Of a DNA stretch of 36,971 nucleotides, positions 4,494-36,971 are shown in pieces. How positions within the stretch are numbered: position 1 is the stretch's first letter; the number at the start of each line of letters is the position of its first letter. The DNA lies in NCBI GenBank assembly GCA_022614695.1, contig JAKEIC010000239.1, positions 1 through 36,971 on the forward strand, given 5' to 3'. The DNA comes from Planctomycetales bacterium. Its GTDB lineage: Bacteria > Planctomycetota > JAKEIC01. The translations under genes were made by a program, and so were the position numbers. Below the pieces are notes generated by a model. That model made no database searches. It worked only from the letters and a program-made list of their open reading frames with translations, and had not been told where the DNA came from.

Positions 4494-6263
4494 CTACGGA
4501 GACACGCCCAGGTAGCTCTGGAGCATCGCCCAGCTCGAGAGGCCGTTCGTGTAGCACGTCGTCGCCGCCGAGACGCCGTGCCCGCTGAACGCGCGCGACG
4601 TGAAGGACGTGAGCCCGCTGAAGCTCGCGACGTCCTTCATGACGTTGGTCGTGCAGCAGCTGTTGTGCGCCCCGCTCGCCCCGCACTGCGAGGCGCCGCC
4701 GCACGAGCCCGTGAGCGCGCTCCCGGTGAGACCGACCGAGTGGCCGATCTCGTGGGACGCGATGTAGGCGAGCCTCTGGGCGTACTGCAGCAGTCGCGCG
4801 TGGATGTCGTTGTAGCGCGTGCCGGAGGTGACGGAGCCGTCGAGGTTGGGCTGGTCGGCCTGGCTGAGCGCGGGGGAGAGGGCCGTCGTCGGCACCGAGG
4901 CGGAGAAGACGCCGAGGGTGCCGCCCGAGCCGCCGAACTGGCTCCCGAGGCAATCGTCCTCGCTCGAGTTCCCGCACGGGCTCCCCGAGTCGAACCAGGC
5001 GGTCCCGAGGACCCCCGCGCCCGAGCTGCTCGTCCCTCCGATGCACATCCGGCTGTAGTCGGTGGTCGCGTTGGTCCCGCCGGGGCTCCCCGTGGCCGGC
5101 GCGATCCCGACGAAGGTGATGTGGATGCTCGTCCCCGAGACGCGCGTCCCGTCGGAGTTGCGGCCGTAGGCGACGTTGAGCCCCTGCAGGATGTAGGCCC
5201 GCATCCAGTCGAGCGCGTAGGCGTTCACCGGGTCGCTCGCCGTCCCGGTCTGGAGCCCGCGCGCCTGCAGGTCCGAGAGGAAGGCCGCCCAGTTCGCGTC
5301 CACGAGCCAGCGCCGCGTGTGGTTGATCCCGGTGGAGGTGTCCCACGTGAACTGCGTCGTCTGGCGGTTCGGAGGGTAGACGTAGCGGAAGCCCTGCGTG
5401 AGCGCGCCCGGGTTGGGACCGGGGTTGGTCACGCGCACGTCCACGACCGCCGGCGCGTGGGCCGCCGTGACTCCCACGATCTGCGTGCTCGAGACGACGC
5501 TGACGCTCGCGAGCGCCGTTCCCCCGAGGTCGGCCGTCGCGCCGGGCGCGAAGGAGGACCCGGTGATCGTGACCGCGTCTCCCCCCGCGTCGAGCCCCGT
5601 CCCCGGCGCGATCGCCGAGACCGTCGGGACCGCCGTGTAGAGGAAGCCGTTCGGGAGGGAGGCCGACTGCGTGTCGGGGTTCGTGACCGTGACGGTCACC
5701 CGGCCGATCGGGTGCGCCGCGGTGACGCCGGTGATCGTGTTGGCGTTCACGAGCGCGACGCTCGAGAGCGGCGAGCCGCCGAACGCGACGGTGGCCCCCG
5801 ACTGGAACGCCGAGCCCGAGACCGTGACGCTCGTGCCGCCCGAGTCGAGGCCGAAGGCCGGCGAGACGGACGAGAAGGACGGCGGCGAGAGCAGGTAGGT
5901 GAACGCCCCGGCGAGCGAGGCCGACCGCCCGTCCGGGTTCAGGACCGTGACCGAGACGGCCCCCGCCGTCCCGGGAGGAGTCGTCGCCACGATCGTCGTG
6001 GCCGAGGCGACGGTCGCGCTGGCCGCGGACGAGCCGAAGAGCACCGATGCCCCGGCCTGGAAGAAGTCCCCGGAGACCGTGACGCTCGTCCCTCCGGTCG
6101 TCGGGCCCGAGGAGGGCGCGACGCTCGCCACGAGGGGCGGGGAAGGCTCGGCCACCGGGAGTGGACGGTGGCGCTCCTTCTGACAACCGGAGCCGGCGAC
6201 CGCCATGACGATCGCGGCGAGGATCAGCGCGCCCGGGCCGGGGGGCAGGTGCGCCGTGCGCAT
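4494..6263 (-). CDS. TIG-repeat lipoprotein with zincin (HEIGH) metalloprotease-like domain
   Basis: A 589-aa predicted lipoprotein: signal peptide 1-26 with V-A-G-S-G before Cys27. Three IPT/TIG immunoglobulin-like domains follow (about 42-125, 126-210, 211-295), each opening with a VxPxxGxxxGGxxVT pattern. The C-terminal 280 residues hold HEIGHSVGL (504-512), the zinc-binding helix of metzincin-type proteases, and a downstream NVM (541-543) that could be a Met-turn. In the canonical HExxHxxGxxH motif the third zinc ligand would be at 514, but Gly is there. Several Cys residues near 518-539 suggest disulfides and extracytoplasmic location. It is likely a surface or periplasmic protease or a non-catalytic derivative. 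Start ATG 6263 fits the signal peptide; no SD is visible. It is divergent from the gene at 6568. Confidence 0.8.
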   Translation of the reverse strand: MRTAHLPPGPGALILAAIVMAVAGSGCQKERHRPLPVAEPSPPLVASVAPSSGPTTGGTSVTVSGDFFQAGASVLFGSSAASATVASATTIVATTPPGTAGAVSVTVLNPDGRSASLAGAFTYLLSPPSFSSVSPAFGLDSGGTSVTVSGSAFQSGATVAFGGSPLSSVALVNANTITGVTAAHPIGRVTVTVTNPDTQSASLPNGFLYTAVPTVSAIAPGTGLDAGGDAVTITGSSFAPGATADLGGTALASVSVVSSTQIVGVTAAHAPAVVDVRVTNPGPNPGALTQGFRYVYPPNRQTTQFTWDTSTGINHTRRWLVDANWAAFLSDLQARGLQTGTASDPVNAYALDWMRAYILQGLNVAYGRNSDGTRVSGTSIHITFVGIAPATGSPGGTNATTDYSRMCIGGTSSSGAGVLGTAWFDSGSPCGNSSEDDCLGSQFGGSGGTLGVFSASVPTTALSPALSQADQPNLDGSVTSGTRYNDIHARLLQYAQRLAYIASHEIGHSVGLTGSALTGSCGGASQCGASGAHNSCCTTNVMKDVASFSGLTSFTSRAFSGHGVSAATTCYTNGLSSWAMLQSYLGVSP

Positions 6264-6567: not shown

Positions 6568-8631
6568 ATGCTCCGTTCCCGCGCCGTGCCGGTCGCCCTC
6601 CTGGTCCTCGCCGCGCTCGGCGCCTTGCTCCTCCTGCTGCTCGCGCGCGGGCCGAGCCCCGGGGACCTGGGGATCGGCTCGGGGCCCGCGGGCGATGATG
6701 CGTCCGACGTCGCGGCCCGGGCGCCGGGGAGCACAGCGGATCCGCGTGGTCCCCCAGCCGCTCCCTCGTCGGGTGGAGGCACGGCCCCGGGAGGGACTGC
6801 CGCCGGCGCGTCGGCTCGCCCGATCCCCGAGGGGAAAGCTCGACTCGGCCTGCGCGTGGCCGACGCGGTCACCGACACCCGGCTGGGCGCGCGAGTCCGC
6901 GTGGGCGAGCTCTCCGCGGACGAGCCCGCCGGGGGGCGGGAGCCCCCGTGGACCGAATCCCTCGAACTCCACCTCGAGCCCGGGACCCGCGTCCGGATCC
7001 GGTTGGAGGCGGACGGCTACTTCCCCGCGGAAGGGATCGTCCCTGTCCCTCAGTCGAGCGGGGAGGAGCGCGAGGTCCGCGCGTGGCTCCTGCCGCGGCC
7101 CGTACCCGGGCGGGGAGTCGTGCGCGGCGAGGAGGGGAACGTCGTCTACGAGGCGCGGGTCGCGTTCGGCCGGCCCCCGCGGGCGAAGGGGTGGGAGGCG
7201 CACGACGAGGACGAGCGGACCGGTTGGGCGGCGGGGAACCGGCTCGGGTGGTCCGCCGTCCCTTCCGCCGAGGGGCTCGCGGCCTGGGGCCGGATCACGT
7301 CCGCGACGGCCCGCACCGAGACCGACGGGACCTACGCCCTCGACCTCATCCCCGGGCTCCAGACGCGGCTCTCGGCGTCCCACCGCTTCCGCTACTACTC
7401 CAACCGCTCGGCGGCGACGATCCGGCCGGCGTCCGAGCCGACGCGGATCTCGGACATCTCGCTCGGCGGCGGCGGCGCCGCGGCGCTCGTGGTCGCGCTC
7501 GCGCGGGACCGCGGCTCGGCCGGGACGATCCACCTCGCGGCGTTCCTCCACGCCGTGGACGGCGGCCGCGTCTACGCGCGCGAGATCGCGGGCGTCACCG
7601 AGTTCGAGATGTGGGGACTCCCGCCCGGCGCGGCCGAGCTGCACCTCCTGCCGCTGCTCCGCGCAGTGAAACCGGCGCGCGTGCCGGTGGAACTCCGTCC
7701 GGAGGAGGTGGCCCGCGCGGGGGTGACCCTCGAGGACGCGCCGATGCTGCGCGGGTCCGTCGCCGACGTGAACGGTCGGCCGGTCCCGCGCGCCGTGCTC
7801 CTCGCCACGTTCCGCTGGCCGGGGCTCCCGGAGGTGGAGATGCCCGAGGCGCCGGCGAAGGGACGCGCGTCGAACGCCCCTTCGGGGGAGGAGCTGAGCG
7901 CCCTGGCCGCCGGCTCCGGCGTCGAGACGCCCTACGGGTGGGAGATCTCGGGCCTGGCCTGGTTCGCCTCCGTGACCGACGGGCGAGGCGCCTTCGTCCT
8001 GGAGGGACTTCCCGAGGGGGGCGCGGACCTCGTCCTCTCGATCCGCGGGGCGACGCGTTGGAGGGGGCGCGGCGTCCCGGGAGAGGCGCCGCTCGAGATC
8101 CGGCTCGCCGAGTCGGAGCCCGACCTCCTCGTGTTCGTCGCGGGGGCCTCCTGGGGCGGCGAGGTGGCCCTGTTCTCGGAGGGAAGGGCCGTCGAGACGG
8201 CCCGGCTCGGGGTCCCGGGCGCCCCGGCCGCGTTCCGCGGGCTCAGGTCCGGACGGTACGCCGTCCTCGCGCGCGAGCGCGGCCTCGATCAGCCCCTCCT
8301 CGGGTACCGCGAGGTGACGGTCGGTGGGGACCGGGCCGAGGCGCTGGACATCGCACTGGCCCCCGCGGGCGTCGTCACGCTGCGGGCGTCCGAGGCGGAG
8401 ACGGGCGCGCCCGTGCGCGCGGCCCTCGAGTGCCTCGCGGGCGGGATCCCGATCGTCCGCCTCGACCTCCGCGAGGGCGAGGCCGAGGTCGCTCTCCCCC
8501 CGCGGACCGCGATCCGCCTGACCGTCTCGGCCGAGGGCCTCGAGCCGTGGGTCCGGGACCTCGCGCTCGAGCCCGGCGAGCGGCTCACGCTCGGGGAGAT
8601 CCGGCTCCGGCGTGCGGGGAGTGGGAAGTAG
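6568..8631 (+). CDS. Membrane-anchored protein with carboxypeptidase-regulatory-like domains
   Basis: A 687-aa protein with an N-terminal membrane segment (about 6-28, Ala/Leu-rich) followed by a Pro/Gly/Ala-rich linker and a large extracytoplasmic part. That part contains several beta-sandwich segments of the carboxypeptidase-regulatory-like/Cna-B type, recognisable from the pattern V.D...G.P......A.....T...G.F...G.P.G near 400-500 and from the C-terminal ATG-style segments ending in EPGE (about 666-669). No enzyme motif is seen. The layout (TM anchor, low-complexity linker, repeated sandwich domains) is the same as in the protein encoded at 21362-24019, suggesting paralogues. Start at ATG 6568 is favoured by the TAGAAT box 8 nt upstream; no SD. 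Its stop faces the ABC-2 permease stop 10 bp away. Confidence 0.8.
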   Translation: MLRSRAVPVALLVLAALGALLLLLLARGPSPGDLGIGSGPAGDDASDVAARAPGSTADPRGPPAAPSSGGGTAPGGTAAGASARPIPEGKARLGLRVADAVTDTRLGARVRVGELSADEPAGGREPPWTESLELHLEPGTRVRIRLEADGYFPAEGIVPVPQSSGEEREVRAWLLPRPVPGRGVVRGEEGNVVYEARVAFGRPPRAKGWEAHDEDERTGWAAGNRLGWSAVPSAEGLAAWGRITSATARTETDGTYALDLIPGLQTRLSASHRFRYYSNRSAATIRPASEPTRISDISLGGGGAAALVVALARDRGSAGTIHLAAFLHAVDGGRVYAREIAGVTEFEMWGLPPGAAELHLLPLLRAVKPARVPVELRPEEVARAGVTLEDAPMLRGSVADVNGRPVPRAVLLATFRWPGLPEVEMPEAPAKGRASNAPSGEELSALAAGSGVETPYGWEISGLAWFASVTDGRGAFVLEGLPEGGADLVLSIRGATRWRGRGVPGEAPLEIRLAESEPDLLVFVAGASWGGEVALFSEGRAVETARLGVPGAPAAFRGLRSGRYAVLARERGLDQPLLGYREVTVGGDRAEALDIALAPAGVVTLRASEAETGAPVRAALECLAGGIPIVRLDLREGEAEVALPPRTAIRLTVSAEGLEPWVRDLALEPGERLTLGEIRLRRAGSGK

Positions 8632-34065: not shown

Positions 34066-36564
34066 CTGAAGATCGGCCCCTACGAGGTGCGCGGGGAGCT
34101 CGGCGCCGGCGGGATGGGCGTCGTCTACCGGGCCTGGGACCCGGAGCTGCGCCGCGACGTCGCCCTCAAGGTCCTCTCGCTCGGCGCGCCGCCCGACTTC
34201 CGGCAGAGGTTCCTCCGCGAGGGGCGGATGGGGGCGCGGCTCAAGCACCCCGGGATCGTCGCCGTCCACGCGGCCGGCGAGGCCGACGGGCAGGCCTTCA
34301 TCGTCCAGGAGCTGATCGAGGGGGAGAGCCTCTCCCGGAGGTTCCTCGAGGGGCCCCTCCCGCCCGGGACGGCGGCGCGGATCCTGGAGAAGGTGGCCCG
34401 GGCGCTCTCCTACGCCCACGCCGAGGGCGTGGTCCACCGGGACGTGAAGCCCGGCAACATCCTCCTCGACCGCGCGGGCGACCCGCACCTCGCCGACTTC
34501 GGGCTCGCGCGCGAGGCGGACGCCTCGATCCAGCTCTCGCGGAGCGGGGAGGCCATCGGGACGCCGCACTACATGTCTCCCGAGCAGGCCGAGGGGAAGC
34601 CCGGCCGCGTGGACGCCCGCACCGACATCTGGGGCTGCGGGGTCGTCCTCTACCAGGCGCTCTCGTGCGCGCTTCCCTTCGAGGGGGGCGCGAACCTCGT
34701 GATGGAGCGGGTCCTCGCGCGGGAGCCGGTGCCGCTGCGCCGGCGCCGCCCCTCGGTCCCGCGCCAGCTCGAGGCGATCGTGGACCGCTGCCTCGAGAAG
34801 GACCCCGGGCAACGCTACCCGACGGCGGAAGCGCTCGCCGACGACCTCGCCCGGTTCCTCCGGGGAGAGCCGACCTCCGCGCGGCCGATCGGACCCGTCT
34901 CGAGGATCGCGCGACGCGTCCGCCGGAACCCCGTCCCCGCGGCCGTGGGAGTCGTGGCTCTCGCCCTGGGGGCGGCCGGCGGCGTCGCGGCGCTCTGGTG
35001 GGCGACCCGGCCGGCCCCCTGGCGCCTCGTCTTCGAGGACGACTTCGAGCGGGCGGATCTCGGGGAGGCCTGGGCGAACGTGATCCGCGGCGACGTCCGG
35101 ATCCACGACGGGGCGCTCTGCTCGCGCGTCGGCCACGTGGCCTTGGACCTCCGGTTCGCCGACGACGTCGCGCTCGAGGTGACGGCCACCGTCCAGCCCG
35201 ACGCGCGGCGGCCGGTCGAGGCGAGCGTCTTCCTCTCGGGGACCCCCGCGTCGGGGCTCCGGGCGGGGTACTCCTTCGAGCACGGGATCGTCCCGTACGG
35301 CGAGTCGGGAGCGACGGACCTCGTCCAGAGGCTCGGGAGGACCGTGCTCCAGGTGGACACGAAGCCGCTCGTCCCCGGGGTCCCGTCCCGGCTCGAGGCC
35401 CGGCGCGACTCGGGCCGGGTCGTCTGGACGGTGGACGGACGGGAGCGGGGCCGCGTCCGGGACCGGGACCCGCTCGAGGGGGACCGGATCGGGATCGGCT
35501 CCAACTGCGACCACATCCACTACGACGACCTGCGCGTCTGGCAGCGCCTCGCGGACCCGACGCTCGCGGCGCTCCGGCGCGCGCAGGGCCTCGCGCGCAC
35601 GGCCCGGCCGGACGCGGCGGCCGAGGCCGCCGGGGAGGTGGCGGCCGACGGGCGAGCCGCGCCCGAGCTCGTGCGGGCGGCCACGGAGATCCGGGTGCCC
35701 GCGATCGCGCGGCGCGACCCGATCGCGGCGTCCCACGAGCTCGCGGCGCTCCGGCCCCGCTGCGGGCTGGTTCCGCGGGAGGTCTCCTCCTTCATCCGCG
35801 GGCTACTGGACGGCCCGGTCGCGGCGGGAGGCGACCGGAAGGCCGTCGAGACCCTCCGGCGCCTCCGCGTCGAGGGAGACCCGGACTACCGGAGCGCGGC
35901 GGCCGAGGCCCTCGAGGCGGTGGCCATCCGGAACCCCGCCGCCGCGCCGGAGGAGGCGGCCGCGCTCCGGGAGCGGGAGGCGCGGGACCCGTCCGCCCAC
36001 CCGCGGTGGACCCTCGAGGAGGCCCTCGCCGCCTGGGACGCCTCGGGCCGGGACGCCGCGCGGCTCCGGATCGGGCCCGACGTCGGCGCGGGTCCCGACC
36101 CGCTCACGGACCGGTGGCGGCGGATCCTCCTCGCGCTCCTCGAGGGGACGTCCGAGGGCCGGGGCCGGATGGGGGACGAGGCCCGCGAGTCGTTCGTGGA
36201 CTGCGCGGTGCCCGCGGCGCTCCTCTCCTACGCGGGGGCTCTCGGGGCCGGCGACCCTCCCGACCTCTCCAAGCGTCGGGCCGACCTGGACGCGCTCGCA
36301 AGGCGGCCCCACCTCGACGTGGGGCTCCCCCAGCGACGCATCATCGCCGCCCTCTCGGGCCTCCCGGAGGAGGAGATCGCGCGGGACCTCCCCCCGTTCG
36401 CCGCTCCCGTCGGGTCCCGCGACGCCGCCCTGGTCGCCTCCCTCGGGGCCTTCTTCCGCGGGGATCGGGCCGCCGGCCGCGCCGCGCTGGAGCGCTACCT
36501 CGCCCAGGAGGATCCCGGGAGCCTGCGGGGCCTCGCGCGGGAGATCCTGGCGGCGGGACGCTAA
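34066..36564 (+). CDS. Membrane Ser/Thr protein kinase with concanavalin-like extracellular domain
   Basis: An 832-aa paralogue of the preceding kinase, near-identical in layout over the first 290 residues: glycine loop GAGGMGVV, Lys35, HRDVKPGN and DFG all kept. After the membrane segment (about 291-314) comes a ConA/LamG or DUF1080-like beta-sandwich (about 322-500; LVFEDDFERADLGEAW, LRAGYSFEHG, RLEARRDSGRVVWTVDG), then a helical region of 330 residues. The outer domain could sense a glycan. Start: the family N-terminus (x-K-I-G-P-Y-E-V) requires a CTG at 34066; the GTG at 34087 would remove seven conserved residues. Only three bases (GCC) separate it from the previous TAG. Confidence 0.88.
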   Translation: MKIGPYEVRGELGAGGMGVVYRAWDPELRRDVALKVLSLGAPPDFRQRFLREGRMGARLKHPGIVAVHAAGEADGQAFIVQELIEGESLSRRFLEGPLPPGTAARILEKVARALSYAHAEGVVHRDVKPGNILLDRAGDPHLADFGLAREADASIQLSRSGEAIGTPHYMSPEQAEGKPGRVDARTDIWGCGVVLYQALSCALPFEGGANLVMERVLAREPVPLRRRRPSVPRQLEAIVDRCLEKDPGQRYPTAEALADDLARFLRGEPTSARPIGPVSRIARRVRRNPVPAAVGVVALALGAAGGVAALWWATRPAPWRLVFEDDFERADLGEAWANVIRGDVRIHDGALCSRVGHVALDLRFADDVALEVTATVQPDARRPVEASVFLSGTPASGLRAGYSFEHGIVPYGESGATDLVQRLGRTVLQVDTKPLVPGVPSRLEARRDSGRVVWTVDGRERGRVRDRDPLEGDRIGIGSNCDHIHYDDLRVWQRLADPTLAALRRAQGLARTARPDAAAEAAGEVAADGRAAPELVRAATEIRVPAIARRDPIAASHELAALRPRCGLVPREVSSFIRGLLDGPVAAGGDRKAVETLRRLRVEGDPDYRSAAAEALEAVAIRNPAAAPEEAAALREREARDPSAHPRWTLEEALAAWDASGRDAARLRIGPDVGAGPDPLTDRWRRILLALLEGTSEGRGRMGDEARESFVDCAVPAALLSYAGALGAGDPPDLSKRRADLDALARRPHLDVGLPQRRIIAALSGLPEEEIARDLPPFAAPVGSRDAALVASLGAFFRGDRAAGRAALERYLAQEDPGSLRGLAREILAAGR

Positions 36565-36574
36565 GAACCTATCT

Positions 36575-36593
36575 CAGCAGGGATCCGCTGCTG
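36575..36593 (+). terminator. Possible weak terminator hairpin after the kinase operon
   Basis: CAGCAG and CTGCTG form a 6-bp stem around a 7-nt loop, 10 nt beyond the stop at 36564. No T tract follows, so support is limited. Confidence 0.35.
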
Positions 36594-36610
36594 CGGCCGG
36601 CTGCGCGGCT

Positions 36611-36700
36611 CGAGTGCGAGTCCGAGTCCGAGTCCGGTCGCGAGGACGAGGCCGACTTCGGGCCGATCCGGCATCGGACTCGGATCCGGACTCGATCTCG
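36611..36700. repeat. Hexamer (CGAGTC) low-complexity tract with inverted counterpart
   Basis: CGAGTG then three CGAGTC hexamers run from 36611 to 36634. About 40 bp later the complementary words GGACTCGGATCCGGACTCG appear (around 36675-36693), so the region can fold into a long imperfect hairpin. No gene with a convincing coding signature lies between 36565 and 36741. Confidence 0.6.
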
Positions 36701-36741
36701 GCCTCGATCCTCGTCCGTGCCTGTGCCCGAATCCGTGCCCG

Positions 36742-36971
36742 GTGCACGGTCTCCCGCACGAGCGTCTCGATGCGTGGCGCGTCGCCCTCGAGCTCGACCG
36801 CGAGGTCGTCGCCGCGGTCCGGATCGTCCCACGCGGCCATGCGTGGCTCGCCGACCAGGCGGCCCGAGCCTCGGGGTCCGGGCTCCTGAACCTGGCGGAA
36901 GCGATGGGGCGCCGCGGGGCGGACCGCGCTCGGACCCTCCGCATCGCGGCGGGGTCCGTGCTCGAGGTCTC
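36742..36971 (+). CDS. Four-helix-bundle protein (S23/IVP, Avd-like family), 3' end outside window
   Basis: The frame runs open to the window edge and gives 76 codons. The pattern matches the four-helix-bundle family first found in 23S rRNA intervening sequences: LDAWRVALELDREVV (the usual LxVWxxAxxLxxEVY), WLADQAARASGSGLLNLAEAMGRR (usual LxxQLRRAAxSIxxNIAEGxGR) and RTLRIAAGSVLEV (usual RFLxIAxGSLxEL). Function of free-standing members is unclear; relatives act as accessory proteins (Avd) of diversity-generating retroelements. GTG 36742 is the first plausible start near the family N-terminus. No SD is visible. Another 30-40 residues would be expected beyond the window. Confidence 0.75.
   Translation, partial: MHGLPHERLDAWRVALELDREVVAAVRIVPRGHAWLADQAARASGSGLLNLAEAMGRRGADRARTLRIAAGSVLEV

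Follow-up and report, generated by a model that had tools for sequence, protein, structure and literature searches.

Probable decaying copy of a small mobile element with an IVP (S23) gene at the end of a Planctomycetales contig

Described relatives of the element

The intervening sequences (IVS) of 23S rRNA genes, known from Leptospira and Coxiella, encode the same protein family and have complementary ends like many of the elements reported here. In Coxiella, the complementary ends are accompanied by tandem heptamers before the start of the S23p gene and the IVS is excised by RNase III without ligation, according to the passages of PMC4990558 that deal with it; these passages also call the 23S rRNA IVS selfish and cite Ralph and McClelland (1993) for the proposal that its open reading frame (ORF) serves mobility. 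The DNA analysed in the current study, hereafter the window, is the entire contig C239 (36,971 bases) of a draft genome (G000; 369 contigs, 4.99 Mb), and it ends within a four-helix-bundle gene of the 23S_rRNA_IVP family (IVP or S23). We consider it likely that this gene belongs to a decaying copy of a small mobile element in which IVP is the only gene, the arms would pair with each other and the IVP protein would drive mobility. The element family occurs 24 times in G000, is widespread in bacteria and is without a known transposase.

The relationship with rRNA IVS is most direct in Azospirillum, where one locus is itself an rRNA IVS with the same arms as the elements described here. In contrast to rRNA IVS, these elements lie mostly outside rRNA, in operon gaps, after stop codons, in frame within dnaE and among cas genes; besides, they occur in many copies, 5-bp target duplications accompany two of the insertions, and arm-only derivatives exist. 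The window copy is not within a 23S rRNA gene, its position being behind a kinase gene, and it is classed here as a variant of the IVS/IVP kind and not as a retroelement. Avd, a protein of diversity-generating retroelements (DGRs), has a similar four-helix-bundle fold (4DWL, 8UB7/8UB8; Z 14-14.9), whereas the sequence identity is ~10% and no reverse transcriptase (RT) stands beside the copies found here.

Miniature inverted-repeat transposable elements (MITEs) and foldback transposons are short, have inverted arms and small target duplications, and give rise to internally deleted derivatives. The elements described here are similar in those traits, although they have no recognised transposase and their arms consist of tandem heptamers with a unit that differs from element to element. 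Stem-loops and insertion near gene ends are characteristic of the REP/RAYT and IS200/IS605 families, and both features are found here as well, but no match to PF01797, the profile of their Y1 transposase, was obtained in G000.

Tandem tracts of heptamers have been described in intergenic regions of cyanobacteria (STRR), Beggiatoaceae, Geobacter and Xanthomonas (PMC4679880, PMC4692102, PMC2700814). These STRR-type repeats resemble the arms of the present elements, and no link to IVP/S23 genes is made in the passages of the three papers that describe them. Within those passages, one paper speculates that a repeat-binding protein could be the mobile element (PMC4679880), and another states that the repeats are generally not associated with mobile elements (PMC4692102). 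Part of the literature on IVP genes also touches on their genomic context: 18 of them were listed in cas loci as an interesting function in the relevant section of PMC3936711, and the passage of PMC5524665 on a four-helix-bundle gene of Flavobacterium columnare leaves 34-36 bases between it and the neighbour on either side. Insertion of the elements into operons would be a plain explanation for the occurrence of IVP genes among cas genes. Beyond the work on rRNA, no open-licence PMC paper was found that connects IVP/S23 genes with arms of tandem repeats or with mobility in chromosomes; the link between IVP and heptamer arms is therefore presented as the new part of this study, provisionally, because preprints and subscription papers lay outside the literature search. 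We also observed IVP elements between cas6 and cas4 or between cas10 and cmr3 in plasmids of Pseudanabaena, Picosynechococcus and Anabaena (L140, L145 and L147), one of these sites being empty in a sister strain.

Insertion sites, copies and arms

Eight pairs of filled and empty sites carry the case for mobility. At site 1, the element is present in Trichormus and Scytonema plasmids with GTAAT on both sides, while the Nostoc linckia and Fremyella plasmids, with 97-98% identity, are empty and read AAAAAGTAATTAACAAAT. Site 2 is in Nostoc ATCC 53789, where an element with 79% protein identity to that of site 1 and the same CAGGAGTCAG arms lies between two other genes, flanked on both sides by TTCTA, and where related plasmids are empty. 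The insertion at site 3 fell on a stop/start overlap (TAATG) and is flanked by TAATG and TTATG, whereas no clear duplication accompanies those at sites 4 and 5, which follow an integrase gene and a traM-like gene, respectively. An element lies between cas10 and cmr3 in Picosynechococcus PCC 7003 and is missing from PCC 7002 (site 6). The element of Azospirillum lipoferum 4B is located inside 23S rRNA (Rfam LSU), replacing the tip of a small hairpin; this strain has another rRNA copy, with 99% identity on either side, in which the site is empty (site 7). Finally, an element of ~450 bp is found inside dnaE of G033 with the host frame open throughout, and the congener G002, 87-88% identical on both sides, has the empty site (site 8).

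Moreover, four plasmids have arms of this type without any IVP gene at one of the Nostoc sites, and elsewhere one locus has arms but no gene and one has a decayed gene. A pair of Nostoc elements at different sites gave a dN/dS of 0.12, which is a rough value with dS above 1. Together, the comparisons show that the units insert, carry their arms along, decay to arm-only forms and keep the protein. Because an element occurs in 23S rRNA with an empty sister copy, the rRNA intervening sequences and the chromosomal units look like one mobile family. As a separate observation, the downstream part of the G033 dnaE gene (L066) contains a second, gene-less GGCACGA tract in frame (TLEEGRHEGTEARRHEERN).

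In G000, a search with the 76-residue fragment encoded in the window recovered 24 copies at E below 1e-9, with identities of 68-99% in 16 of them and of 44-49% in 8, and the PF05635 profile gave 25 matches. Seven of the 24 copies are located less than 400 bp from a contig end, compared to ~1.4 expected, a behaviour typical of repeats that break assemblies. A preliminary description of this DNA, made from the window alone, had suggested a small mobile unit and proposed searching the genome for further copies with the same flanking repeats; the 24 copies, with their common ends and tract, bear this suggestion out, and the single copy that was to speak against it is not what the genome holds.

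The copies fall by alignment into three subfamilies, A (10 copies, including that of the window), B (6) and C (8). In family A, the order of parts is an end motif (consensus TAAGCGGGTCGGCGGATCTCTTTGGGGATCGG), a CGAGTC tract, a hairpin, the IVP gene and the end motif in inverted orientation. The pattern of this motif has 10 exact matches in G000, nine of them at ends of A copies, and with at most two mismatches it is present at both ends in five of the eight A copies for which the 3' end is available; four of those eight clearly sit where two genes converge, with a stop codon on either side. The IVP domain is missing from internally deleted copies on C330 and C160, and no target-site duplication was seen in the G000 copies. 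These alignments show that the tract and terminal repeats of subfamily A move together with the gene as one unit. An alignment of terminal repeats over long flanks rose above shuffles only in L012 (59 vs 57), and given this weak outcome the end-motif tests were judged more telling. Among the six complete A copies, the dN/dS averaged 0.19 over 15 pairs (range 0.14-0.33), which points to purifying selection on the IVP coding sequence while the copies spread.

Relatives elsewhere were sampled as 77 IVP domain hits in 15 genomes of the phylum and in the Acidobacteria contig L031; the loci of the phylum comprised 60 stretches plus 10 further loci, and the 78 original profile hits became 77 when an overlapping second segment in L112 was dropped. 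Twelve plasmid loci from 32 records (ten cyanobacterial, one of Azospirillum and one of Gemmatirosa) were added. Tandem periodicity of 5-12 bases peaks directly before and after the IVP gene, and 35 of the 77 loci reach a tandem score of at least 19/24 over the 160 nt that precede the domain, compared to 4.3% of 1527 control regions. When the ten annotated cyanobacterial plasmid loci are counted in, 42 of 87 upstream tracts reach this score against 29 of 1077 control stretches. The repeats are degenerate, and the best period among the 42 is 7 in 31 tracts and 8 in 9. Furthermore, complementarity between the upstream and downstream tracts exceeded every position-shifted control of the same locus in 53 of the 77 loci, where chance would give ~1/20, and 11 of the 12 plasmid loci passed the inverted-arm test. 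The 5' arm is purine-rich (0.577) and the 3' arm pyrimidine-rich (purine fraction 0.457) in comparison with 0.519 (n=58, a set that excludes the hairpin-type loci of G013, L127 and short flanks).

The placement of the elements was assessed in 37 loci with a GC content of at most 0.60, out of 71 for which sufficient upstream sequence was available. The upstream neighbour has the same orientation as the IVP gene in 29 of them and the opposite one in 5, both neighbours are co-oriented in 27, and a median of 56 nt separates the IVP start from the stop codon before it. With co-oriented neighbours and such short gaps, the arm-bearing elements live inside operons.

The window copy, the start-codon hairpin and the IVP protein

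The window copy stands behind a host gene for a protein kinase (34087-36564, plus strand; ORF with PF00069 at E 7.1e-46) that ends with a TAA stop codon at 36562-36564. From this stop codon to the tract extends a spacer (36565-36613) that differs from the terminal repeat of other copies, and the CGAGTC-type foldback tract, the 5' arm of the element, occupies 36612-36699 (plus strand). It is followed by a remnant of the N-terminal codons of the IVP gene (36705-36741, plus strand) and by the partial gene itself (36742-36971, plus strand; PF05635 at E 3.7e-8), which is cut by the contig end, so that no downstream features were visible to the preliminary description. The fragment scores 34.0 bits against PF05635, where the curated cut-off is 33.8, and full-length copies elsewhere in G000 score 43.7, 51 and 49.6 bits; the first in-frame start codon remaining is GTG at 36742.

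The CGAGTC tract folds at -67 kcal/mol, while its shuffles fold at -57.8 +/- 3.7 (z -2.5), and a longer stretch around it gives z -3.3; in both cases 2 of 200 shuffles equalled the real fold. Similarity to the tracts of other copies begins at 36617, and 36617-36718 is 95% identical to positions 44-145 of the C50 copy. The adjoining remnant at 36705-36741 aligns with C50 positions 248-284, and according to this alignment the start codon and hairpin of the other copies are deleted from the window copy. Having neither hairpin nor start codon, the window copy is probably decaying. Its 5' terminal motif carries four mismatches, compared to none in seven of the nine other family-A copies. Bases 36562-36613 are foreign to the usual end of the element and recur once, at C110:13138-13189 (L164; 87%, 52 bp); in the window copy they take the place of the usual 5' end. 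These 52 bp could represent the terminus of a different family of short repeats.

A hairpin that pairs the Shine-Dalgarno region with an upstream stretch is predicted in 21 copies from all three subfamilies, at -41 to -70 kcal/mol, and its outer arms extend into the first codons in several of them. Changes on both sides were found in 8 of 25 pairs in a set of 12 sequences from two subfamilies, RNAalifold having misaligned the outer stems when all 21 copies were used. The variant found in G000 and G013 has a hairpin of very high stability that covers the ribosome-binding site, and the IVP protein would therefore probably be made only when the hairpin is opened, for instance by a ribosome reading through from the upstream gene. 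At three G013 loci (L110, L112 and L122) IVP genes were observed head-on or back-to-back within ~500 bp of each other, and a conserved hairpin (CGCCCC..CACTTGCGTGGGGCG) precedes each of these paired genes.

The AlphaFold2 model of a full A copy (L003; pLDDT 90.6) matches the IVP structures 2gsc (Z 18.1) and 2rld (Z 15.8) and, ahead of unrelated helix bundles, Avd of the Bordetella phage DGR (Z 14-14.9). Other fold matches, such as pectin methylesterase inhibitors, were taken as common helix-bundle resemblance. Several claims of the preliminary description are in agreement with these data: the partial gene belongs to the IVP family, given a PF05635 match above the cut-off and the fit of the full-copy model to 2gsc; kinship with Avd is reflected in the Z of 14-15; the gene upstream encodes a kinase; and the low-complexity tract does fold back on itself (z -2.5 to -3.3), beating 198 of 200 shuffles. 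Across 38 diverse proteins, down to ~20% identity, Asn65, Glu68 and Glu90 are invariant and Gln54, Ser61, Arg72 and Gly86 nearly so, a pattern that would suit a working site. Ten copies (L003, L004, L005, L007 and L008 of subfamily A and L010-L014 of subfamily B) have a Cys-rich N-terminal extension (CSCPxPCPVHG, TCTCTCS) in the first 20 codons. The codons of this extension fall in the tract pairing with the 5' arm, and the extension may be a metal site or a mere by-product of the repeat.

Explanations for the spread of IVP elements

In the explanation that we favour, the arms would pair in the transcript or in single-stranded DNA, which would make the unit tolerated inside other transcripts, as rRNA intervening sequences are, and the stem formed in the mRNA would limit the harm to the host transcript. 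The IVP pentamer would bind the arms and guide or drive insertion, acting as the mobility factor of the element, alone or with a nuclease or polymerase of the host. While we infer this role of IVP in mobility, the present data support the mobile part of the 1993 proposal. More tentatively, it is possible that IVP/S23 genes with heptamer arms constitute a distinct class of autonomous transposable element in which the protein, with its invariant Asn, Glu and Glu, would be a new kind of recombinase, that rRNA IVS are only its best-known landing sites and that many STRR-type repeats are arms or relics.

Several points weigh against the favoured explanation. An exact 5-bp duplication is present at only two of the eight filled/empty sites, with 4 of 5 bases at one and none at five, and movement has been read from the comparison of sites. 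The strict inverted-arm test was passed by only 1 of the 19 testable copies of G000 (five of the 24, with short flanks, were left out). With 18 of 19 failing, the G000 type, together with the related hairpin type of G013, is treated as a variant with a 5' foldback, a start-codon hairpin and, in family A, short terminal inverted repeats, so that the window subfamily is tied to the armed elements through gene family, tract, terminal repeats and placement at stop codons and not through the arm test. To our knowledge, no catalytic activity has been attributed to IVP. In Coxiella, S23p is probably not made in vivo, according to the part of PMC4990558 that concerns it. The Acidobacteria contig L031, with a long hexamer tract, a start-codon hairpin and a 75% identical protein, bridges the armed and hairpin types. 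This contig also has a second GAGCAC-type hexamer tract and a second IVP gene in opposite orientation (~7926-8050 and 5272-5610).

It is rather unlikely, in our view, that the IVP gene is a passenger or helper of non-autonomous elements mobilised in trans by an enzyme that the host or some other element supplies, be it an RT, a Y1 or DDE transposase or repair. IVP has no catalytic motif of a known recombinase and a fold in common with Avd, the partner of an RT; arm-only derivatives indicate that the gene is dispensable in cis, and most genomes of the phylum have an enzyme capable of acting in trans (PF00078 in 30 of 59 and PF01797 in 38 of 59). Nevertheless, G000 has no Y1_Tnp match, in a search that did not cover DDE families, and G033, which is listed as 100% complete, has neither PF00078 nor PF01797 and yet a filled site absent from its congener, while selection keeps the IVP gene. 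An ordinary host gene with paralogues, whose tracts and hairpins would be regulatory, terminators or debris of replication slippage, is a very improbable source of the pattern: tandem tracts do occur without an IVP gene and 4.3% of control regions score equally high, but this explanation has to face near-identical plasmids whose sites are filled in some, with exact 5-bp duplications, and empty in others, the 23S rRNA insertion in a strain whose sister copy is empty, the in-frame insertion in dnaE and a patchy distribution, the gene occurring in 24 of 59 genomes and reaching 25 copies.

The preliminary description had left room for a retroelement beyond the contig end, and the fold shared with Avd and a contig that ends inside the gene would both fit a DGR avd gene with its RT just out of view. 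This branch did not hold, and DGR identity, rejected on RT counts, is extremely improbable for the window gene. The only PF00078 match in G000 is on C350, a contig without an IVP match, so that none of the 24 dispersed copies accompanies it, and the C350 protein has only a partial RVT_1 match. Among the 59 genomes of the phylum, 14 have both IVP and RT, 10 IVP only, 16 RT only and 19 neither, which makes the two independent by count; thus 10 of the 24 IVP-bearing genomes are without PF00078, and one of them, G012 (97% complete), has 14 IVP matches. IVP-type matches within ~600 bp of an RT were observed in G036 (C2:10721-11840) and G019 (C81:25808-27282); in the latter, the match is located 5' of the RT in the same orientation and the pair looks like a true DGR avd-RT, in contrast to the situation in G000. 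The RT of G000 itself (C350:27475-27915, L058), matched over profile positions 62-193 of RVT_1, reads FKDD where the motif is usually YxDD, and it may be a defence-type enzyme.

Altogether, the rRNA intervening sequences appear to form a single family of small mobile elements together with hundreds of scattered 'four helix bundle' genes. The S23/IVP protein has posed questions of role and spread ever since rRNA intervening sequences were first described, and the filled and empty sites offer concrete insertions with target duplications that can be tested in culturable Nostoc, Trichormus, Picosynechococcus and Azospirillum. Besides, an origin is offered for heptamer repeats that had been catalogued without a cause. 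If the favoured explanation is true, an element with a 120-residue helix bundle as its only product would rank with the smallest known and would extend the set of proteins capable of moving DNA.
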